A stretch of 56,314 nucleotides of DNA from Methylotenera sp. (GTDB taxonomy: Bacteria > Pseudomonadota > Gammaproteobacteria > Burkholderiales > Methylophilaceae). The DNA lies in NCBI GenBank assembly GCA_020622105.1, contig JAHRYP010000017.1, positions 1-56,314 on the forward strand, read 5' to 3'. Of this stretch, positions 6,620-46,793 are shown piece after piece. Every line of letters starts with the position of its first letter. Within the stretch, counting starts at the first letter, position 1. The notes beneath the pieces were generated by a model. The model was not told the DNA's origin, searched no databases, and was given only the letters and a program-made list of their open reading frames with translations. Position numbers and translations under genes: made by a program.

Positions 6620-7441
6620 ATGCAGGTTTATCATGAGCTACTGAACCATGTTTTAGAGCATGGTAACCTAAAAGAAGATCGTACCGGTACCGGCACCACC
6701 TCAGTGTTCGGTTACCAGATGCGATTTAATCTGGCTGATGGTTTTCCTCTACTTACGACTAAAAAGCTGCATCTAAAATCCATTATCCATGAACTGCTGT
6801 GGTTCTTGCAGGGCAGCACTAATATTGCCTACCTCAAAGAAAACGGTGTACGTATCTGGGATGAATGGGCGGACGAAAACGGTAATTTAGGCCCTGTTTA
6901 TGGTTATCAATGGCGTAACTGGCCTAAGCCGGATGGGACGCATATTGACCAAATAGCCAATGTTGTAAAAGCGATTAAAAAGAATCCGGATTCACGCCGA
7001 CTGATTGTTTCAGCCTGGAATGTGGCAGATGTCGATCAAATGAAATTACCGCCTTGCCATGCCTTTTTCCAGTTTTATGTGGCGCCTGCTTTGCCGGACG
7101 AAGCGGATCAAAGGTCAAAACTGAGCTGTCAGCTCTATCAGCGTAGTGCTGATATATTTCTTGGCGTGCCATTTAATATTGCATCTTATGCCTTGCTCAC
7201 CATGATGGTGGCACAGGTGTGCAATTTGAAATTGGGCGATTTTGTGCATACACTCGGCGATGCACATATTTACTCCAACCATATGGACCAAGTACACGAA
7301 CAGCTCGCGCGTACGCCACGTACACTGCCAACAATGCGTATCAATCCAGAAGTGAAAGATATCTTCGGTTTTAAATATGAAGATTTCACTTTGGAAAATT
7401 ATGATCCATACCCTGCTATTAAAGCCTTGGTAGCAGTTTGA
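6620..7441 (+). CDS. thyA: Thymidylate synthase
   Basis: Methylates dUMP to dTMP using methylenetetrahydrofolate, yielding dihydrofolate. The 273-residue protein has the catalytic cysteine at C146 in [12 protein letters not shown] and the folate/dUMP-binding stretch [20 protein letters not shown]. The N-terminal [20 protein letters not shown] is also typical. It is slightly longer than the E. coli enzyme because of an insert after the catalytic cysteine segment. It starts only 6 bases after thrC and may be co-transcribed with it. The folA product that recycles its dihydrofolate is encoded about 5 kb downstream. Confidence 0.97.
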
Positions 7442-7453
7442 GGTTAAAAAAAT

Positions 7454-7485
7454 GGTTGCCTTGTTCGGGAATTAACAAAGCAACC
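7454..7485. terminator. Terminator between thyA and the EF-hand gene
   Basis: GGTTGC-C-TTGTT and AACAA-A-GCAACC form an 11-bp stem with one mismatch and an 8-base loop. On the minus strand the hairpin is followed by ATTTTTTT, the form of an intrinsic terminator for the EF-hand transcript. It also separates it from thyA, which converges from the other side. Confidence 0.7.
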
Positions 7486-7549
7486 AAAGCTTGCAACTTA
7501 CAGGGGATAAGGATAAGTCACAAGTAATGCATAAAGTTACTACTTACAT

Positions 7550-7897
7550 TTAGTTTGTGGCTGGTGCTTTCTCCTTATTGATGCTTGATAAAGCTGATTT
7601 GTAATTTACATACTCACTTGTTGTCAGCATGCCGTCACTGTCTGCATCAGTGACATCAAAAACATTCGCTAATTCCTTGTCTTTAACAGCCTCTTTAAGC
7701 GATATTTTTCCATCAGCATTGGCGTCCAGTTTTTTGAAATCAGCGTCGGCTGTTTTAACTACTGCTGAATCAACTTTTTTGGTGTCTGCTGCTTTATTCT
7801 CAGCAAATGCTGTGCTGATCATGCCCGTGCTAAAGAACATGCCCATTGTTCCGGCTGCGATTAAGCGCATTGAATTACTTGATAAATTGAATTTCAT
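7550..7897 (-). CDS. Exported EF-hand calcium-binding protein
   Basis: A 115-residue protein with a Sec signal peptide (hydrophobic core about residues 11-30, likely cleavage after AFA at residue 32). Two canonical EF-hand loops follow: D58-A-N-A-D-G-K-I-S-L-K-E69 and D84-A-D-S-D-G-M-L-T-T-S-E95. All calcium-ligating positions hold acceptable residues, so it should bind two calcium ions in the periplasm or outside the cell. The mature protein is otherwise Lys/Ala/Asp rich and has no enzyme domain. Start ATG 7897 has an AGGAGT ribosome site. A sigma-54-type promoter lies about 70 bases upstream. The partner gene at 8361 points the other way across a shared control region, so I infer joint control by GlrR. 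Its role is unknown. Confidence 0.88.
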   Translation of the reverse strand: MKFNLSSNSMRLIAAGTMGMFFSTGMISTAFAENKAADTKKVDSAVVKTADADFKKLDANADGKISLKEAVKDKELANVFDVTDADSDGMLTTSEYVNYKSALSSINKEKAPATN

Positions 7898-7976
7898 GAA
7901 TTAACTCCTGAATAATATTTAAAAGATTTTTAAGACAACTGCAATTTAAGCTGCAATTAAGCTGTAATAAATACAT

Positions 7977-7993
7977 TGCGAATATCGTGCCAC
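7977..7993 (-). promoter_or_regulatory. Sigma-54 promoter for the EF-hand gene
   Basis: Read on the minus strand the sequence is GTGGCACGATATTCGCA. It has a perfect TGGCACG -24 block and a CGC -12 block, with the G of GG and the G of GC exactly 12 bases apart, as sigma-54 requires. The predicted start of transcription is near 7966, giving a leader of about 69 bases before ATG 7897. Only one position of the -12 TTGCA core differs. Confidence 0.75.
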
Positions 7994-8056
7994 ATTTTTT
8001 TATCATTATTAATCAATAAGTTATGATGATTTATGTTTTTTTGGCTCTGATTAAGA

Positions 8057-8074
8057 TGTCGCTAAATAACGACT
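8057..8074. promoter_or_regulatory. Candidate GlrR site 1
   Basis: TGTC-N10-GACT, one base off the palindrome TGTC-N10-GACA that E. coli GlrR recognises upstream of glmY. It lies about 100 bases upstream of the predicted EF-hand start and about 260 upstream of the predicted 8361-gene start, within the usual range for a sigma-54 enhancer site. Confidence 0.55.
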
Positions 8075-8122
8075 ATTATTTAGATCTTCTGATCTAACTA
8101 TATGATTTAATGTAATAAAATT

Positions 8123-8140
8123 TGTCTTGTATTGACGACA
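8123..8140. promoter_or_regulatory. Candidate GlrR site 2
   Basis: An exact TGTC-N10-GACA match, extended to TTGTC-N10-GACAA. It lies about 165 bases upstream of the EF-hand start and about 197 upstream of the 8361-gene start. With site 1 it is flanked by two sigma-54 promoters facing outward, and the cognate regulator gene glrR begins about 2 kb away. Confidence 0.65.
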
Positions 8141-8301
8141 ATATTCTTATATTTACAGATCCGTTAATGATTATTTTTCGAATCGATATGATTTCCTCAA
8201 AAATCTTAATCTGAGATCAAAAGATTGAATCTAAAGCGCTAATTTGGGTTTCAGCAAGTTGATATATGACTGTAAAGTTACTGTTTAACCTCTTATTTTG
8301 A

Positions 8302-8318
8302 TTGGCATAGATCATGCA
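8302..8318 (+). promoter_or_regulatory. Sigma-54 promoter for the thioredoxin-fold gene
   Basis: TTGGCATAGATCATGCA matches the -24 (TTGGCA) and -12 (TGCA) elements with the required 12-base phasing between GG (8304-8305) and GC (8316-8317). Predicted transcription starts near 8329, about 32 bases before ATG 8361. A weaker sigma-70 reading (TTGATT-N17-TAGACT) overlaps the same bases but is a poorer match. Confidence 0.7.
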
Positions 8319-8360
8319 TATAGACTATTACCATCAAACTTGATGATTAGGAGGTAAGAA

Positions 8361-8771
8361 ATGAATAGATTATTAAAACGTACAACACAGCTAGTATGTG
8401 CAGTATTAGCGGCAGGGACGCTTACGGTTTTTGCCAAGACTAGTCCAACATTTGATATTCACACTAGCGTAGTCTCAAAGGCTGTAGAAAGTGAAAAGGG
8501 TGTCATTATGGTTTTTACAGAGCGTGGCAATGTTGCTGCTGAAGCGGCGTATTTGTTATTGGCACAAACTAAGCAAAATGAAGGTTTTGCGCCGTTATTG
8601 CTAGCGGTGGAAAATGAGAAAGTAGCAGGCTACAAAGCTGCTTTGGGATTGCCGAGTGCCGCACTCCCTGCTGTAATTTTCTTTAACAAATCTGGCAAAG
8701 AAATCGCGCGTGTAGTTCCCGCCAAATCTGCAATGACCAAGTATAGCCATGCACAGTACCAGCTTATTTAG
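8361..8771 (+). CDS. Exported thioredoxin-fold protein lacking CXXC
   Basis: A 136-residue protein behind a very strong AGGAGGT ribosome site. A signal peptide (MNRLLKRTTQ then a hydrophobic core) probably ends after VFA at residue 25. The C-terminal part, ALPAVIFFNKSGKEIARV, resembles the cis-proline strand and following turn of thioredoxins. There is no Cys pair: the only Cys is in the signal peptide, so redox activity is unlikely. I do not recognise a named family; a binding or chaperone role is guesswork. It is transcribed alone, from a sigma-54-type promoter, and is followed by a large hairpin. It is divergent from the exported EF-hand gene and next to glrR. Confidence 0.75.
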   Translation: MNRLLKRTTQLVCAVLAAGTLTVFAKTSPTFDIHTSVVSKAVESEKGVIMVFTERGNVAAEAAYLLLAQTKQNEGFAPLLLAVENEKVAGYKAALGLPSAALPAVIFFNKSGKEIARVVPAKSAMTKYSHAQYQLI

Positions 8772-8915: not shown

Positions 8916-10265
8916 TTAACTCTTAAAAGTGTTCGCTTGTATATGGTGACGTTCCAGCAAACGGTAAAATTCAGTGCGGTTACGCTGCGCTAACTTGGCT
9001 GCTTGCGTTACATTGCCCTGGGTCAGTTTTAGCAGGTTGATAAGATAGGATTGCTCAAAATTACGGCGGGCGGCTTCAAATGGAATAATTGCATTTGATT
9101 CATCCTGTAACGATTTCTGTACCAGACTTGCAGGCACAATCTGCGTAGTCGCCAGGACTACCATCTGCTCAACCATATTCTGTAGCTGACGCACATTTCC
9201 CGGCCATGGTGCTGCAATCAGTATTTCCAGAGCGTCAGGTGCAAAACCATATACCTTTTTCTTATATTTTTTATTGTAAATGCCAATAAAATGGTTGGCC
9301 AACAGGCTGATATCCTCACGACGATTCGCTAAAGAAGGTATCTCCAGGCCGACAACGTTAATTCGGTAAAATAAATCTTCACGAAAACGTTCATTCTGCA
9401 TTTCATTCGCCAAGTTACGGTGCGTCGCTGAGATTAATCTCACGTCGATTTTGACGTCAGTGGTATTACCAACAGGACGAATAGTACGTTCCTGCAAAGC
9501 TCTTAAAACCTTAACCTGTAGCGGCAGGGGCATATCGCCGATTTCATCCAGAAACAGGGTGCCGCCATCTGCACTTTGGAATAAGCCAACATGCGATTTT
9601 GTGGCACCCGTGAATGAGCCCTTGCTATGGCCAAACAGTTCGGATTCGAGGAGATTTTCCGGGATAGCGCCACAATTGATTGCTACAAATGGCCTCGAGT
9701 GACGCGGACTTGCATTATGAATTGCCCGTGCCAGTAACTCTTTGCCGGTACCGCTTTCACCTTGAATAAAGACATTCGCATCCGTGCCTGCAACTAATTT
9801 AGCCTGTCCCAGTAAACTTTCCATTTGTGGGCTGCGTGTAATGATGGCTTCTCGCCAATCATTATTTTCATTTATATCGGATTGCGTGGTGTTTATACCG
9901 TTTAAACGTAGCGCTGCCGCTACCTGATGCAGCAGTTCCTGGCTATCGAAGGGTTTGGTTAAGAAGCCAAACACGCCGCGCTGGGTAGCACGTACAGCAT
10001 CGGGTATAGAGCCGTGCGCTGTTAATATGATGACAGGTAGGGTGGGGTGCGAATTATGCACGGCTTCGAGCAAAGCCATGCCATCCATGGCTGGCATGCG
10101 TAAGTCGCTGATGACAATGTCCGGGCGCTGTAGCGCAATCGCTGACATGGCTTCAACACCATTACTGGCAGTCGCCGTATCGTAGCCGGCAGCGCGCAGG
10201 CGTATGCTGATCAGTTTTAGTATGTCCTGATCATCATCTACAATGAGTATGTATGGCTTTTGCAT
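8916..10265 (-). CDS. glrR: Sigma-54-dependent response regulator GlrR
   Basis: An NtrC-family activator of 449 residues. It has a receiver domain (about 1-120, phosphoacceptor D54 in VISDLRMPAMDG) and an AAA+ sigma-54 interaction domain (Walker A GESGTGKE at 169-176, Walker B LFLDEIGDMP). The C-terminal Fis-type helix-turn-helix contains GNVTQAAKLAQRNRTEFYRL, closely matching E. coli GlrR. The sigma-54 contact loop reads GSFTGA (216-221) instead of the commoner GAFTGA. It is the last gene of glrK-lipoprotein-glrR, the enterobacterial order, 9 bases after the lipoprotein gene. Likely targets are the two sigma-54 promoters in 7898-8360, which hold TGTC-N10-GACA-type sites. Confidence 0.92.
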   Translation of the reverse strand: MQKPYILIVDDDQDILKLISIRLRAAGYDTATASNGVEAMSAIALQRPDIVISDLRMPAMDGMALLEAVHNSHPTLPVIILTAHGSIPDAVRATQRGVFGFLTKPFDSQELLHQVAAALRLNGINTTQSDINENNDWREAIITRSPQMESLLGQAKLVAGTDANVFIQGESGTGKELLARAIHNASPRHSRPFVAINCGAIPENLLESELFGHSKGSFTGATKSHVGLFQSADGGTLFLDEIGDMPLPLQVKVLRALQERTIRPVGNTTDVKIDVRLISATHRNLANEMQNERFREDLFYRINVVGLEIPSLANRREDISLLANHFIGIYNKKYKKKVYGFAPDALEILIAAPWPGNVRQLQNMVEQMVVLATTQIVPASLVQKSLQDESNAIIPFEAARRNFEQSYLINLLKLTQGNVTQAAKLAQRNRTEFYRLLERHHIQANTFKS

Positions 10266-10274
10266 TTGTTATGC

Positions 10275-10859
10275 CTAGTTGCTGGATTTGGAATCACGGT
10301 CATTCATGGTCTTTTCAATATTTTTCAGTTCATTAAGCTTCTGTTCCAAGACTTTATTTTTAAGCTCGAGGGCTTCGTATTTCTGTTGAGCAGATTCAAG
10401 TTTTTTTATCTCTTCTCGATTCCTCTGCTGTTGCTTCGTATAGTCTGTCGTGTATTCATATAGCAAGCTACTCAAAGCAAAGTCTGCAGGATGAAGCGTA
10501 TTTTCTTGCAATATGTCTTGAAGCAAATTTTGTGCCTTTGCATTATCGCGCACGCGGCTAGTAGGAAGGGCAAGCATAGATGCCAGCTTGAGGCGGCTCA
10601 GCAGATTATTTTTATTTTCTGCCAGTATTTGGTTGGTTTCTGCAAAAACTTTCTTCTGCATTTCCGGTGTAAGGTTTGAGTAGCTATCGATAAAAGCCAA
10701 TAGCTCTGTCACATTATTTTGTTTAAAAGCGCTGGTTTTTATTGTGCTGGCTTTACCAGTATTGCCATTGGCAGTAGCGTTACTGACGATTGCGTTATTG
10801 CTGCATGCGCAGGCTAACATCAGGCTGCAAAGTAACATTGTAAAATTCTTGCTGTTCAT
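10275..10859 (-). CDS. QseG-like outer-membrane lipoprotein
   Basis: A 194-residue protein between glrK and glrR, the position held by QseG in enterobacteria, where it modulates GlrK from the outer membrane. The N-terminus is a short lipoprotein-type signal (TMLLCSLMLACACSNN) with cysteines at 17 and 19; the lipobox is not ideal. The middle is helical, and the C-terminus (about 145-185) is a Lys/Glu/Leu coiled coil (KKLESAQQKYEALELKNKVL). Direct sequence similarity to QseG is not obvious to me, so the assignment rests on position, lipoprotein signal and coiled coil. It begins 7 bases after glrK ends and is surely co-transcribed. Confidence 0.7.
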   Translation of the reverse strand: MNSKNFTMLLCSLMLACACSNNAIVSNATANGNTGKASTIKTSAFKQNNVTELLAFIDSYSNLTPEMQKKVFAETNQILAENKNNLLSRLKLASMLALPTSRVRDNAKAQNLLQDILQENTLHPADFALSSLLYEYTTDYTKQQQRNREEIKKLESAQQKYEALELKNKVLEQKLNELKNIEKTMNDRDSKSSN

Positions 10860-10866
10860 CTGAATC

Positions 10867-12306
10867 TCAATCTTCTGATTTTATTATCTTGGGTAAAGTC
10901 ACGATAAAGTGTGCACCCTGACTCGAAGGCGCAAGTTCAATGTTGCCGCCATGCACTTTAACCAGGTCTTTTGTAATTGCCAGACCAAGTCCACTGCCAC
11001 TTATCAAACTCTTATGTATATTAGTACCTCTGTAAAAGGGGTCAAACAATTTTTCCTGATCTGCTTTATCCAGACCAGGACCATGATCGATCACTTCAAT
11101 AATGACTCGGTCGCTATCTTCGCTGGCGTATATTTTAATATGCCCAGAGTCAGGACTATATCGCACGGCATTGGAAATAAGGTTGTCTATAATAATTGTC
11201 AGTTTTTCATAGTCAGCAGTTATTTGCTTGAGATTGAATACGGTATCTATAAGCAATTGCTTGTTACGAATACTGAGTTCGTGTGCGCCGATAACTTTGG
11301 TGATCAAATCTGGTAAGTTTACTGGCTGCAAATCAAGTTTGAGCTGAATGGATTCCAGCTTCGTGTAATTAAGCAGGTTTTCGATCATGCGCTGCAAGCG
11401 GATCGTATTGTCTTTTAGGATATGGGTAATTTCTGCCTGCTGTACAGATAAGGTACCACCTATGCCATCATTCAATAATTCCGTAGCCTCTCTAATCGCT
11501 GTGAGCGGCGTTTTAAGTTCGTGTGAGATATGGCGCAGGAACTGCTGTTTTTGTTCGTCAAGTTCTTTGAGTTCGGCACGCAGCCAATCCAGACGTTGAC
11601 CTAAAACTCGTAAATCGCCGGGGCCATCAATAGAAATTTCCTGTTCATAATGACCTTCACCAAGCTCTTTGATTGCTTTATCCATACGACGAATCGGGCG
11701 CGCAAGCATAAAGGCGATGCAGCCGGCGACTAACAGCGCTAATGGAATTAACACCAGACTTTGTATGAATAAATTTCTTTGTGTATTTTTTGCAGTAAGG
11801 GTGAGTTGGGAGGATGTTTTATCTATTGCCTGGCTATTTTCTTCAATAATCACCTCAATTTGCTGCGTAAGCTGGCTAAAGGTATCAAGAAAATCCAATT
11901 GTGTCGTTTGCGTTCCTATGGAATTCAGGATTAGCTGATTTAGCTGTTGGGTTTGCTGCCGTAGAGAATTGATTCTTTCCAGCTGCGGACGATAGGTCGT
12001 CAACTGCTGCAGTTCTACAATAGCTGAGTCGAATTTGATATCAGCCTGTTTGTAGTTTTTAAACAAGGTGTCATCTTGCAGCACATAATATTGCCTGATG
12101 CTGCGTTCCATTAAATATGCCTGCTCTTGCAGTATTCGCACTGCCCGCGTTGTTTTGACGGCATTGTTAATCGTAATTTCACTCTGCTCGGCAAGTTTAT
12201 CAAATGCAATGTTGGCATTTGTAAAAGCCCATAACAAAGGGAAAATGGCGAATGCAAAGCCAATTAACAGCAGCTTTAAAAACGAGCCTGGGTAATGAAT
12301 GCTCAT
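10867..12306 (-). CDS. glrK: Sensor histidine kinase GlrK
   Basis: A 479-residue membrane kinase that should phosphorylate GlrR. It has membrane segments at about 10-30 and 180-202, a helical periplasmic domain between them, and HAMP at about 203-255. The phosphoacceptor H262 lies in FLRHISHELKTPLTAIREAT, and a HATPase domain (N-box region IIDNLISNAVRYS, G-boxes DHGPGL and GSGLGLAI) follows. Length and the SHELKTPL region match E. coli GlrK/QseE. It is first in the three-gene operon and divergent from folA across only 46 bases. The signal it senses is not evident. Confidence 0.9.
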   Translation of the reverse strand: MSIHYPGSFLKLLLIGFAFAIFPLLWAFTNANIAFDKLAEQSEITINNAVKTTRAVRILQEQAYLMERSIRQYYVLQDDTLFKNYKQADIKFDSAIVELQQLTTYRPQLERINSLRQQTQQLNQLILNSIGTQTTQLDFLDTFSQLTQQIEVIIEENSQAIDKTSSQLTLTAKNTQRNLFIQSLVLIPLALLVAGCIAFMLARPIRRMDKAIKELGEGHYEQEISIDGPGDLRVLGQRLDWLRAELKELDEQKQQFLRHISHELKTPLTAIREATELLNDGIGGTLSVQQAEITHILKDNTIRLQRMIENLLNYTKLESIQLKLDLQPVNLPDLITKVIGAHELSIRNKQLLIDTVFNLKQITADYEKLTIIIDNLISNAVRYSPDSGHIKIYASEDSDRVIIEVIDHGPGLDKADQEKLFDPFYRGTNIHKSLISGSGLGLAITKDLVKVHGGNIELAPSSQGAHFIVTLPKIIKSED

Positions 12307-46103: not shown

Positions 46104-46793
46104 TTAGTCATCTACTATCAGGTTATAAACCAAAGCACCAATAATGCCGCCGAAAATCGGCGCCAGCCAGAATAGCCATAGCTGATCAATATAAGCACTG
46201 CCTGCAAACAAGGCCTGACTAGTGCTGCGTGCCGGGTTCACTGAGGTGTTGGTCACTGGGATGCTGATCATATGGATGAGTGCAAGCGTCAAGCCAATGG
46301 CAAGCGGAGCGAGGCCAGCGGGAGCACGTTTATCAGTAGCGCCCATGATGATGAAAATAAAAACCGCCGTCATCACAACTTCAGTGACCAGAGCCGCTTG
46401 AAATGAGTATTGGTGCGGTGATAATTCACCATAGCCATTTGCGGCAAAGCCACCAACGGTAAAACCTGCCTGACCACTGGCAATGACGTAAATGACCGTA
46501 GCTGCCAAAACTGCACCAAGCACTTGTGCCACAACATAAAATGGCAAGTCTTTTGCACTAAAGCGACCTCCCATCACCAGACCAACTGACACTGCAGGAT
46601 TTAAGTGGCAGCCTGAAATGTGGCCAATGGCATAAGCCATCGTGACCACAGTTAATCCAAACGCAAGAGATACGCCCAGGTATCCCAAGCCTAAGTCAGG
46701 AATGCCTGCCGCCAGCACTGCACTGCCGCAACCGCCTAGCACTAACCAGAAAGTACCGATTAACTCGGCTAATGAACGTTTTGTTAATGACAT
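46104..46793 (-). CDS. aqpZ: Aquaporin Z
   Basis: A 229-residue water channel with six membrane helices and the two half-helix motifs [12 protein letters not shown] and [12 protein letters not shown]. The N-terminus [20 protein letters not shown] is typical of AqpZ. Start ATG 46793 has a GGAGGTG ribosome site; upstream in-frame codons reach 46883 but lack support. Water flux is expected; selectivity-filter residues were not checked. Confidence 0.93.

Follow-up and report, generated by a model that had tools for sequence, protein, structure and literature searches.

The GlrKR/QseEF system is known from enteric bacteria, in which its small-RNA output contributes to envelope control. The E. coli glmY region carries three exact GlrR-type sites (UAS), two of them 63 bp apart, together with a -24/-12 element. 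In the available parts of two papers the site is printed as TGTC-N10-GACA (PMC8745638) or given as TGTN12ACA (PMC6075780), and the latter source also reports assistance by IHF at the GlrKR/glmY promoter and describes rpoE P2 as a protein-coding sigma-54 output of QseF in E. coli. Betaproteobacteria share the kinase–lipoprotein–regulator gene order, qseEGF being widespread, according to the accessible part of PMC12691602, which in that part names no GlrR output outside enterics. A search of mostly non-subscription literature returned nothing on GlrR with an EF-hand protein, nor on GlrR with an sRNA in Burkholderiales; related work was available in part (PMC9850573, PMC10117139, PMC11722255).

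The window, by which we mean the whole 56,314-nucleotide stretch of Methylotenera sp. DNA that was analysed, is a single contig of a 2.5-Mb genome. A plus-strand gene is followed by the EF-hand gene on the minus strand (7897–7550), a 463-bp gap and a plus-strand gene for a thioredoxin-fold protein. Three minus-strand genes come next: glrR, one for a lipoprotein, and glrK. The features of this region are as follows.

Ending at 7441, plus strand: gene that we take to be thyA-like, the 3' neighbour of the EF-hand gene.
7446–7486, minus strand: intrinsic terminator with a 13-bp stem (7486–7453) and a T7 tail, from sequence parse and fold.
7490–7524, minus strand: 3'-UTR hairpin with a C-rich loop and, in the host genome, a 12-bp stem, from fold and covariation.
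7550–7897, minus strand: gene for an exported-looking EF-hand protein of 115 aa with two EF-hand loops (Pfam EF-hand_5).
7977–7992, minus strand: -24/-12 promoter of the EF-hand transcript, TGGCACGATATTCGCA, read directly, with a predicted start near 7966.
8011–8023, no strand: IHF-like site, AATCAATAAGTTA, located upstream of the -24 element at a distance of 18 bp, within the UAS–promoter spacer.
8057–8074, no strand: promoter-proximal GlrR-type UAS, TGTCGCTAAATAACGACT, of the form TGTC-N10-GACT, with one mismatch.
8123–8140, no strand: promoter-distal GlrR-type UAS, TGTCTTGTATTGACGACA, an exact TGTC-N10-GACA.
8303–8318, plus strand: -24/-12 promoter of the thioredoxin-fold gene, TGGCATAGATCATGCA, read directly, with a predicted start near 8329.
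8361–8771, plus strand: gene for an exported-looking protein of 136 aa with a probable thioredoxin fold and no CxxC (AlphaFold2, Foldseek).
8916–10265, minus strand: gene for a response regulator and sigma-54 activator of the glrR/qseF type (PRK15115 GlrR being its best NCBIfam model).
10275–10859, minus strand: lipoprotein gene in the QseG position, from its place between kinase and regulator and its N-terminus.
10867–12306, minus strand: histidine kinase gene in the glrK/qseE position (Pfam HAMP, HisKA, HATPase_c).

The last three genes stand in the kinase–lipoprotein–regulator order of GlrR/QseF systems, and GlrR is the best model for the regulator, in agreement with the glrK–lipoprotein–glrR operon that an earlier reading of the sequence alone (the sequence-only reading) had placed here. 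PRK15115 scores 612 bits, against 428 for the next best NCBIfam model, ntrC. Because this score lies under the equivalog cut-off of 763, the regulator is called GlrR-type and not a certified equivalog. Its Response_reg and Sigma54_activat domains pass the Pfam thresholds, and HTH_8 is under cut-off. The lipoprotein has no meaningful family match in Pfam or NCBIfam. In the EF-hand protein, one stretch passes for EF-hand_5 (E 7e-8), two loops are visible in the alignment, and several loop residues do not vary among 15 aligned proteins. The protein is presumably exported, as judged from its hydrophobic N-terminus, and would be expected to bind calcium. Strong matches to its family occur in 19 of 52 genomes of the genus. 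An identity with lanmodulin was rejected: the NCBIfam LanM model gives 25 bits against a cut-off of 135, and the protein has two EF-hand loops only.

The minus-strand promoter has the organization of the glmY type. The element TGGCACGATATTCGCA differs at one position from the sigma-54 -24/-12 consensus, TGGCACG-N4-TTGCA, and repeated TGTC-N10-GACA sites are located upstream of it. The proximal UAS lies 64 bp from the -24 element and the distal UAS, the sole exact TGTC-N10-GACA within the window, 66 bp from the proximal one. Sites of the clade often take the form TGTCG-N8-CGACA, from which each of the two UAS in the window is one mismatch away. A sequence match to an IHF site is present between the UAS and the promoter, AATCAATAAGTTA conforming exactly to the IHF consensus WATCAANNNNTTR. 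Elsewhere in the window, a further strong -24/-12 match, TGGCAAGTCTTTTGCA, is found at 46542–46557 on the plus strand, with one mismatch.

This architecture is conserved across the genus, which was sampled with 52 genomes. Two UAS with a pitch of 64–66 bp are present in all 20 EF-hand promoters of 19 genomes (G012 has two copies); the pair lies 61–65 bp upstream of a -24/-12 element, with the EF-hand start roughly 40–80 bp further on. The -24/-12 element, with at most three mismatches, is at the same place in 20/20, and the proximal UAS has an equivalent with at most one mismatch in 20/20; the distal UAS carries two mismatches in two promoters (L249, L250). An exact IHF-like site is found in 12 of the 20, against 0.44 expected from shuffles, and one with at most one mismatch in 18, against 5.78 expected; two have none. 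For 14 of the 20, the best match and the -24 element are 17–19 bp apart. Locus L053 repeats L235 and was excluded from the counts of IHF-like sites and from the parse of untranslated regions described below.

The presence of the EF-hand gene follows that of glrR. A whole-genome search identified a glrR orthologue with at least 62% identity in 19 of the 52 genomes, G032 having at best a relative of 54%, and exactly those 19 genomes give EF-hand profile matches of at least 94 bits, the next best match in any genome reaching 58.8 bits. The gene is thus present in 19/19 genomes with a close glrR orthologue and in 0/33 others, G032 among them; Fisher's test gives 1.3e-14, a figure that ignores the kinship of the genomes. 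Proteins from 12 of these 19 genomes, each encoded next to glrR, went into the profile itself, so that the 19/19 arises partly by selection; the 0/33 is the freer half of the comparison, though several of the 33 genomes are incomplete. In 16 mapped loci of the genus (the window, L051–L060 and L062–L066) the EF-hand gene is located 3' of glrR; in G018 it is 3.6 kb away, and in G073 the two genes are on separate contigs. No such UAS pair occurs at the second GlrR-like gene of G023 (L061) or at that of G032 (L077). Because the EF-hand gene tracks the glrR orthologue, GlrR is the best candidate activator. The co-occurrence and the retention of the UAS pair and -24/-12 element in 20/20 promoters bear out what the sequence-only reading had proposed for this side, and the minus-strand promoter with its link to GlrR is, on comparative grounds, very probably genuine.

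Pattern scans of the genus gave a less complete picture. A search for exact pairs was too strict (5 of 52 genomes, and no match in the host). A looser scan returned 24 places in 21 of the 52 genomes, 15 of which are EF-hand promoters; the host pair was missed because of its mismatch. The places in G061, G036, G065, G030, G003 (C43) and G020 were judged by eye to be chance matches, and those in G032, G023 (C7) and G010 (C12) precede other open frames. The last of these (L209), which lies away from glrR, has an exact and a one-mismatch UAS 66 bp apart and a -24/-12 element before the gene for an exported-looking protein of 215 aa, and represents a possible second target in G010.

The divergent thioredoxin-fold gene presents a different pattern. 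A single-sequence fold of its product (pLDDT 38.6) was replaced by an AlphaFold2 model computed with 11 sequences (pLDDT 79.3), for which Foldseek ranks thioredoxins first among solved structures, with modest scores (lowest E 4e-4; query TM 0.34–0.46 among the best 50 listed). The protein has no Pfam match and lacks a CxxC active site, its only Cys lying in the N-terminal hydrophobic stretch. The family comprises 10 close copies (at least 62% identity) in 8 of the 52 genomes and one distant relative. The plus-strand element TGGCATAGATCATGCA has three mismatches to the -24/-12 consensus, and elements with at most four mismatches lie within 165 bp upstream of 10/10 close copies; the eleventh relative (L233, 28% identical) has none with up to five mismatches and is left out of this count. 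The plus-strand promoter is therefore probably real.

This promoter is only loosely linked to GlrR. GlrR-type sites accompany only the two copies beside glrR (G000, G011), where the UAS pair lies 139–228 bp from the promoter. The eight close copies away from glrR all have a -24/-12 element, but up to 700 bp of sequence before them contains no GlrR-type site. In seven of them a GCAY-N15/16-GCAC repeat is located at -213 to -234 (upstream regions L225–L227 and L229–L232), possibly the site of another sigma-54 activator. These eight copies suggest an alternative in which the plus-strand promoter is sigma-54-dependent but answers to an activator other than GlrR; the G000 and G011 copies beside glrR, which have the UAS pair and lack the repeat, argue against it, and we regard it as plausible though not probable. 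Each of these two genomes has a second, distant copy that does carry the repeat. Most simply, a duplicate of the thioredoxin-fold gene would have relocated next to glrR and swapped one enhancer for another. From these comparisons, control of the gene in the window by GlrR is only slightly favoured. Of the second output that the sequence-only reading had assigned to GlrKR, the promoter thus stands in all close copies, and GlrR-type sites accompany the two copies beside glrR and are missing at 8 of the 10 homologues.

On the minus strand, the EF-hand transcript ends in a hairpin with a C-rich loop followed by a terminator (7524–7453), which fold with a z-score of -6.96. A parse recovered the same arrangement behind 20 of 21 EF-hand genes, against 0.98 expected from mononucleotide shuffles, L250 being the one failure; the pair table of this parse is dependent, because pairing chose the hairpins. 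With nearly the same parse, 3 of 49 other genes of the window pass, with scores of 23.1, 12.0 and 10.0 against 25.0. We further analyzed covariation in a MAFFT alignment of 21 distinct hairpins, with rows cut by hand as hairpins, out of 26 (21 tails from the genus and L279, that of G147 and four bare RNAs; G115 was left out). Paired cells make up 90.0% of this set, where shuffles average 75.1, and slid versions of the alignment pair at 27–47%. The covariation score of 0.562, against 0.278 for shuffled alignments, was reached by 0 of 500 shuffles; eight of ten pairs change on both sides, a number reached by 12 of 500. In a smaller count on 16 of these hairpins, 93.1% of cells pair, and the 12 G-U cells against a single A-C/C-A cell favour the minus strand. 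We are highly confident that the module is a conserved structured element.

No Rfam family matches the window at 7300–8500 (E up to 1) or seven related loci (E up to 0.5). Homology to GlmY/GlmZ was considered and rejected, as RF00083 has no match in the host genome with a positive E. coli control. The glrR-adjacent promoters of other lineages did not show the module, with 1 of 29 passing the parse.

A homologous module directly follows the promoter, with no EF-hand frame between, in part of the sister genus g39. In four genomes (G142, G145, G146, G154), the same kind of promoter lies directly after a glrR that is 66–67% identical, no EF-hand frame follows, and a nearly invariant segment of 71–73 nt begins at the predicted +1. 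The segment consists of a hairpin with a CUUCCUCCCUU-containing loop and a terminator, beyond which stands a convergent gene whose product is 31–32% identical to that of the thyA-like gene of the window. This bare RNA with its CCUCCC loop, at a GlrR-type promoter beside glrR, is found at L274, L276, L277, L280 and L102, the last being a Methylophilus contig with the same promoter and RNA segment as G154. In G147, of the same sister genus, an EF-hand gene is followed by almost the sister-genus hairpin sequence, implying common descent of the bare RNA and the mRNA tail.

A covariance model built from the four sister-genus RNAs (R1) was searched in 187 genomes of the family and matched 12 places in 11 of them. 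Four are the training loci beside glrR; the other eight are located just 3' of EF-hand genes, in G009, G001, G027, G018, G012 (both copies), G147 and G115, the frame of the last holding masked letters. With filters off, R1 matches 14 of 20 EF-hand loci, the window included, at a position 3' of the gene, and has no match in the remaining six (L245, L246, L247, L250, L251, L252); four additional matches of this run (E 0.41–0.62) fell in loci with a better match and were left uncounted. The match to the window module is weak (21.4 bits, E 0.026), and in the whole-genome search at E 0.01 the module was unmatched.

These results bear on what the RNA does. If GlrR simply drove two small proteins, the 3' hairpins would be just a terminator and an mRNA-stability structure. 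The second hairpin is indeed an ordinary terminator, several EF-hand loop residues are invariant as noted above, and this type of promoter precedes EF-hand genes in other lineages too. Against this, the first hairpin, with its C-rich loop, is conserved in addition to the terminator, and the two hairpins stand straight after the promoter where the EF-hand frame is absent, so that an output of proteins only appears unlikely. Because the sister-genus promoter leads directly into the module without an EF-hand frame, the RNA itself appears to be a selected output, and the module may well work as a regulatory RNA in trans. The claim of the sequence-only reading that GlrKR drives proteins here instead of an sRNA is, given the conserved module and its homologues in the four sister-genus genomes, probably wrong.

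GlrR-type promoters also occur in more distant lineages. A scan of named genomes for two UAS and a promoter gave at least 120 stretches, the classes of which are to be read as a sample; target classes derive from automatic ORF picks and BLAST clusters, and ten representatives were checked with Pfam. Among the matches listed are small EF-hand, BON-domain, CxxCG, bactofilin-like and cyanophycin-synthase-like proteins, TRAP/ABC substrate-binding proteins, most of these beside activators about 40% identical to GlrR, and three probable glmY regions (L091 of Tatumella, L118 of Pantoea, and L181). Pfam recognized the EF-hand (4/4), BON (2/2) and cyanophycin synthase (1/1) representatives; the bactofilin match was under cut-off and the CxxCG protein had none. 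The bactofilin-like cluster has at least 18 members (L079, L081, L084 and others) under sigma-54 promoters with UAS pairs, and among the matches listed a glrR-like gene is 3.3–3.5 kb away in 14 of 18. At L268, EF-hand-like repeats, under cut-off, are joined to a BON domain behind the same promoter type, which links two target classes. Paired TGTCTC-N6-GAGACA-like sites, possibly those of a related activator, precede the sigma-54 promoters of L268, L269, L271 and L272.

In other families of the order, paired sites and a promoter lie just 3' of glrR in 4 of 10 loci (L067–L076), and one locus has a single site. One such family has a second RNA 3' of glrR, with a core, TTCAAGAGTGCGCCTTGTGGGGCAGG, that was matched in 8 of 399 genomes, seven of them from that family; the eighth match (L281, f43) was set aside as chance, having no promoter, UAS or glrR. 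The seven genomes and two named contigs have paired UAS, a -24/-12 element with at most four mismatches, and a glrR that ends 226–368 nt upstream (L282–L288, L112, L130; L130 is identical to L282 in the stretch compared, and L070 is the place of L287). C-rich stretches lie upstream of the core, the RNA has no Rfam match, and its terminator stem differs between members by paired changes. GlrR-type promoters before likely sRNAs are thus not limited to enterics.

The motif does not belong to GlrR alone, since TGTC-N10-GACA pairs also precede genes that neighbour activators with only about 40% identity to GlrR. The UAS might accordingly be bound by another sigma-54 activator, for instance of the PrsR type, with the adjacent glrR a coincidence; the pattern beside such activators in Marinobacter and others, and the further loci of the family with TGTCTC-N6-GAGACA-like pairs, would fit this explanation. 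The presence of the EF-hand gene with glrR orthologues (19/19 versus 0/33) and the match of the UAS to those of E. coli glmY make it very improbable.

Finally, the gap was compared with 5000 dinucleotide shuffles of its 463 bp. An exact UAS arose in 8 shuffles and a UAS pair in none; a -24/-12 element arose in 3 with at most one mismatch and in 77 with at most three, and a divergent -24/-12 pair in none. The elements, which lie where the sequence-only reading had put them, therefore exceed chance. Genome-wide, single UAS-like sites show no enrichment: 40 places in the host match TGTCG-N8-CGACA with at most one mismatch, against 122 for a backwards control pattern, and only the two in the window are within 1 kb of each other. 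The motifs are short and single sites unremarkable in number, yet the shuffles and the conservation in 20/20 promoters leave chance matches in AT-rich DNA a negligible explanation.

The interpretation that we favour, with reasonable though far from complete confidence, is that the transcript is a GlrR-driven hybrid of EF-hand mRNA and small RNA. GlrK, with the QseG-like lipoprotein, would phosphorylate GlrR, which would bind the UAS pair at 8057–8074 and 8123–8140. The spacer would be bent by IHF, allowing GlrR to drive sigma-54 RNA polymerase at 7992–7977, so that transcription is predicted to depend on both RpoN and IHF. The transcript from about 7966 would encode the small, exported EF-hand protein and end in the C-rich-loop hairpin and terminator, and this 3' module would probably give rise to, or itself function as, a regulatory small RNA; its C-rich loop might base-pair with G-rich ribosome-binding sites in target mRNAs. 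The divergent gene, for the thioredoxin-fold protein, was probably brought under these UAS after the duplicate had relocated next to glrR. Comparison of the genomes establishes the promoter, the UAS, the IHF-like site, the EF-hand gene and the RNA structure as sequence features and ties them to one another. Taken as a whole, the sequence-only reading is supported in connecting GlrR, as the likely activator, with the EF-hand gene and was probably mistaken about the sRNA, and its thioredoxin-fold output is loosely tied to GlrR, given the homologues that have no such sites.

A broader proposition stands at about even chances. The ancestral and essential output of this GlrR may be a trans-acting sRNA with a C-rich loop, the EF-hand gene being a partner or passenger in a dual-function mRNA and absent from that transcript in some members of the sister genus. 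On a broader scale, the slot 3' of glrR in Betaproteobacteria would repeatedly host either small envelope proteins or sRNAs that are driven by GlrR but unrelated to one another, at least two families of which lack an Rfam match. As the regulator, its sites and the promoter geometry are kept while the product is in some cases an RNA-tailed mRNA and in others the RNA by itself, these loci constitute a natural experiment on the selected output of GlrR. They also provide a named short RNA for direct probing, at 7524–7446 of the window, with four bare homologues in the sister genus.

Among known systems, lanmodulin and small bacterial EF-hand proteins resemble the locus in comprising an exported-looking EF-hand protein in a probable methylotroph, with a weak LanM match of 25 bits; the window protein differs from lanmodulin in falling far under the 135-bit cut-off and in having only two EF-hand loops. 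The Rhodobacter CcsR RNAs with CcaF1 are reportedly UTR-derived sRNAs, modules with C-rich loops accompanying a small-protein ORF. The likeness lies in that loop and ORF, whereas the Rhodobacter system is Alphaproteobacterial and has another promoter. The E. coli rpoE P2 promoter likewise gives a protein-coding output of QseF from a sigma-54 promoter, with a different gene; we know of no 3' RNA module there. Because rpoE P2 is already a protein output of QseF (PMC6075780, in part), protein outputs of GlrR/QseF are not new in principle, and the output that the sequence-only reading called undescribed is so for the pairing of GlrR with an EF-hand protein, which had no match in the literature searched, and not for a protein output as such. 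A further counterpart is E. coli glmY with GlrKR/QseEF and QseG, which shares the sigma-54 promoter, the repeated TGTC-N10-GACA sites, the reported help from IHF, the adjacent kinase–lipoprotein–regulator genes and an RNA output. GlmY is likewise an RNA output of GlrR, but no homology was detected to the window module, the RNA of the window having no GlmY/GlmZ match. The promoter in the window lies 3' of glrR and not 5' of glrK, and, unlike GlmY, its transcript usually also encodes an EF-hand protein.
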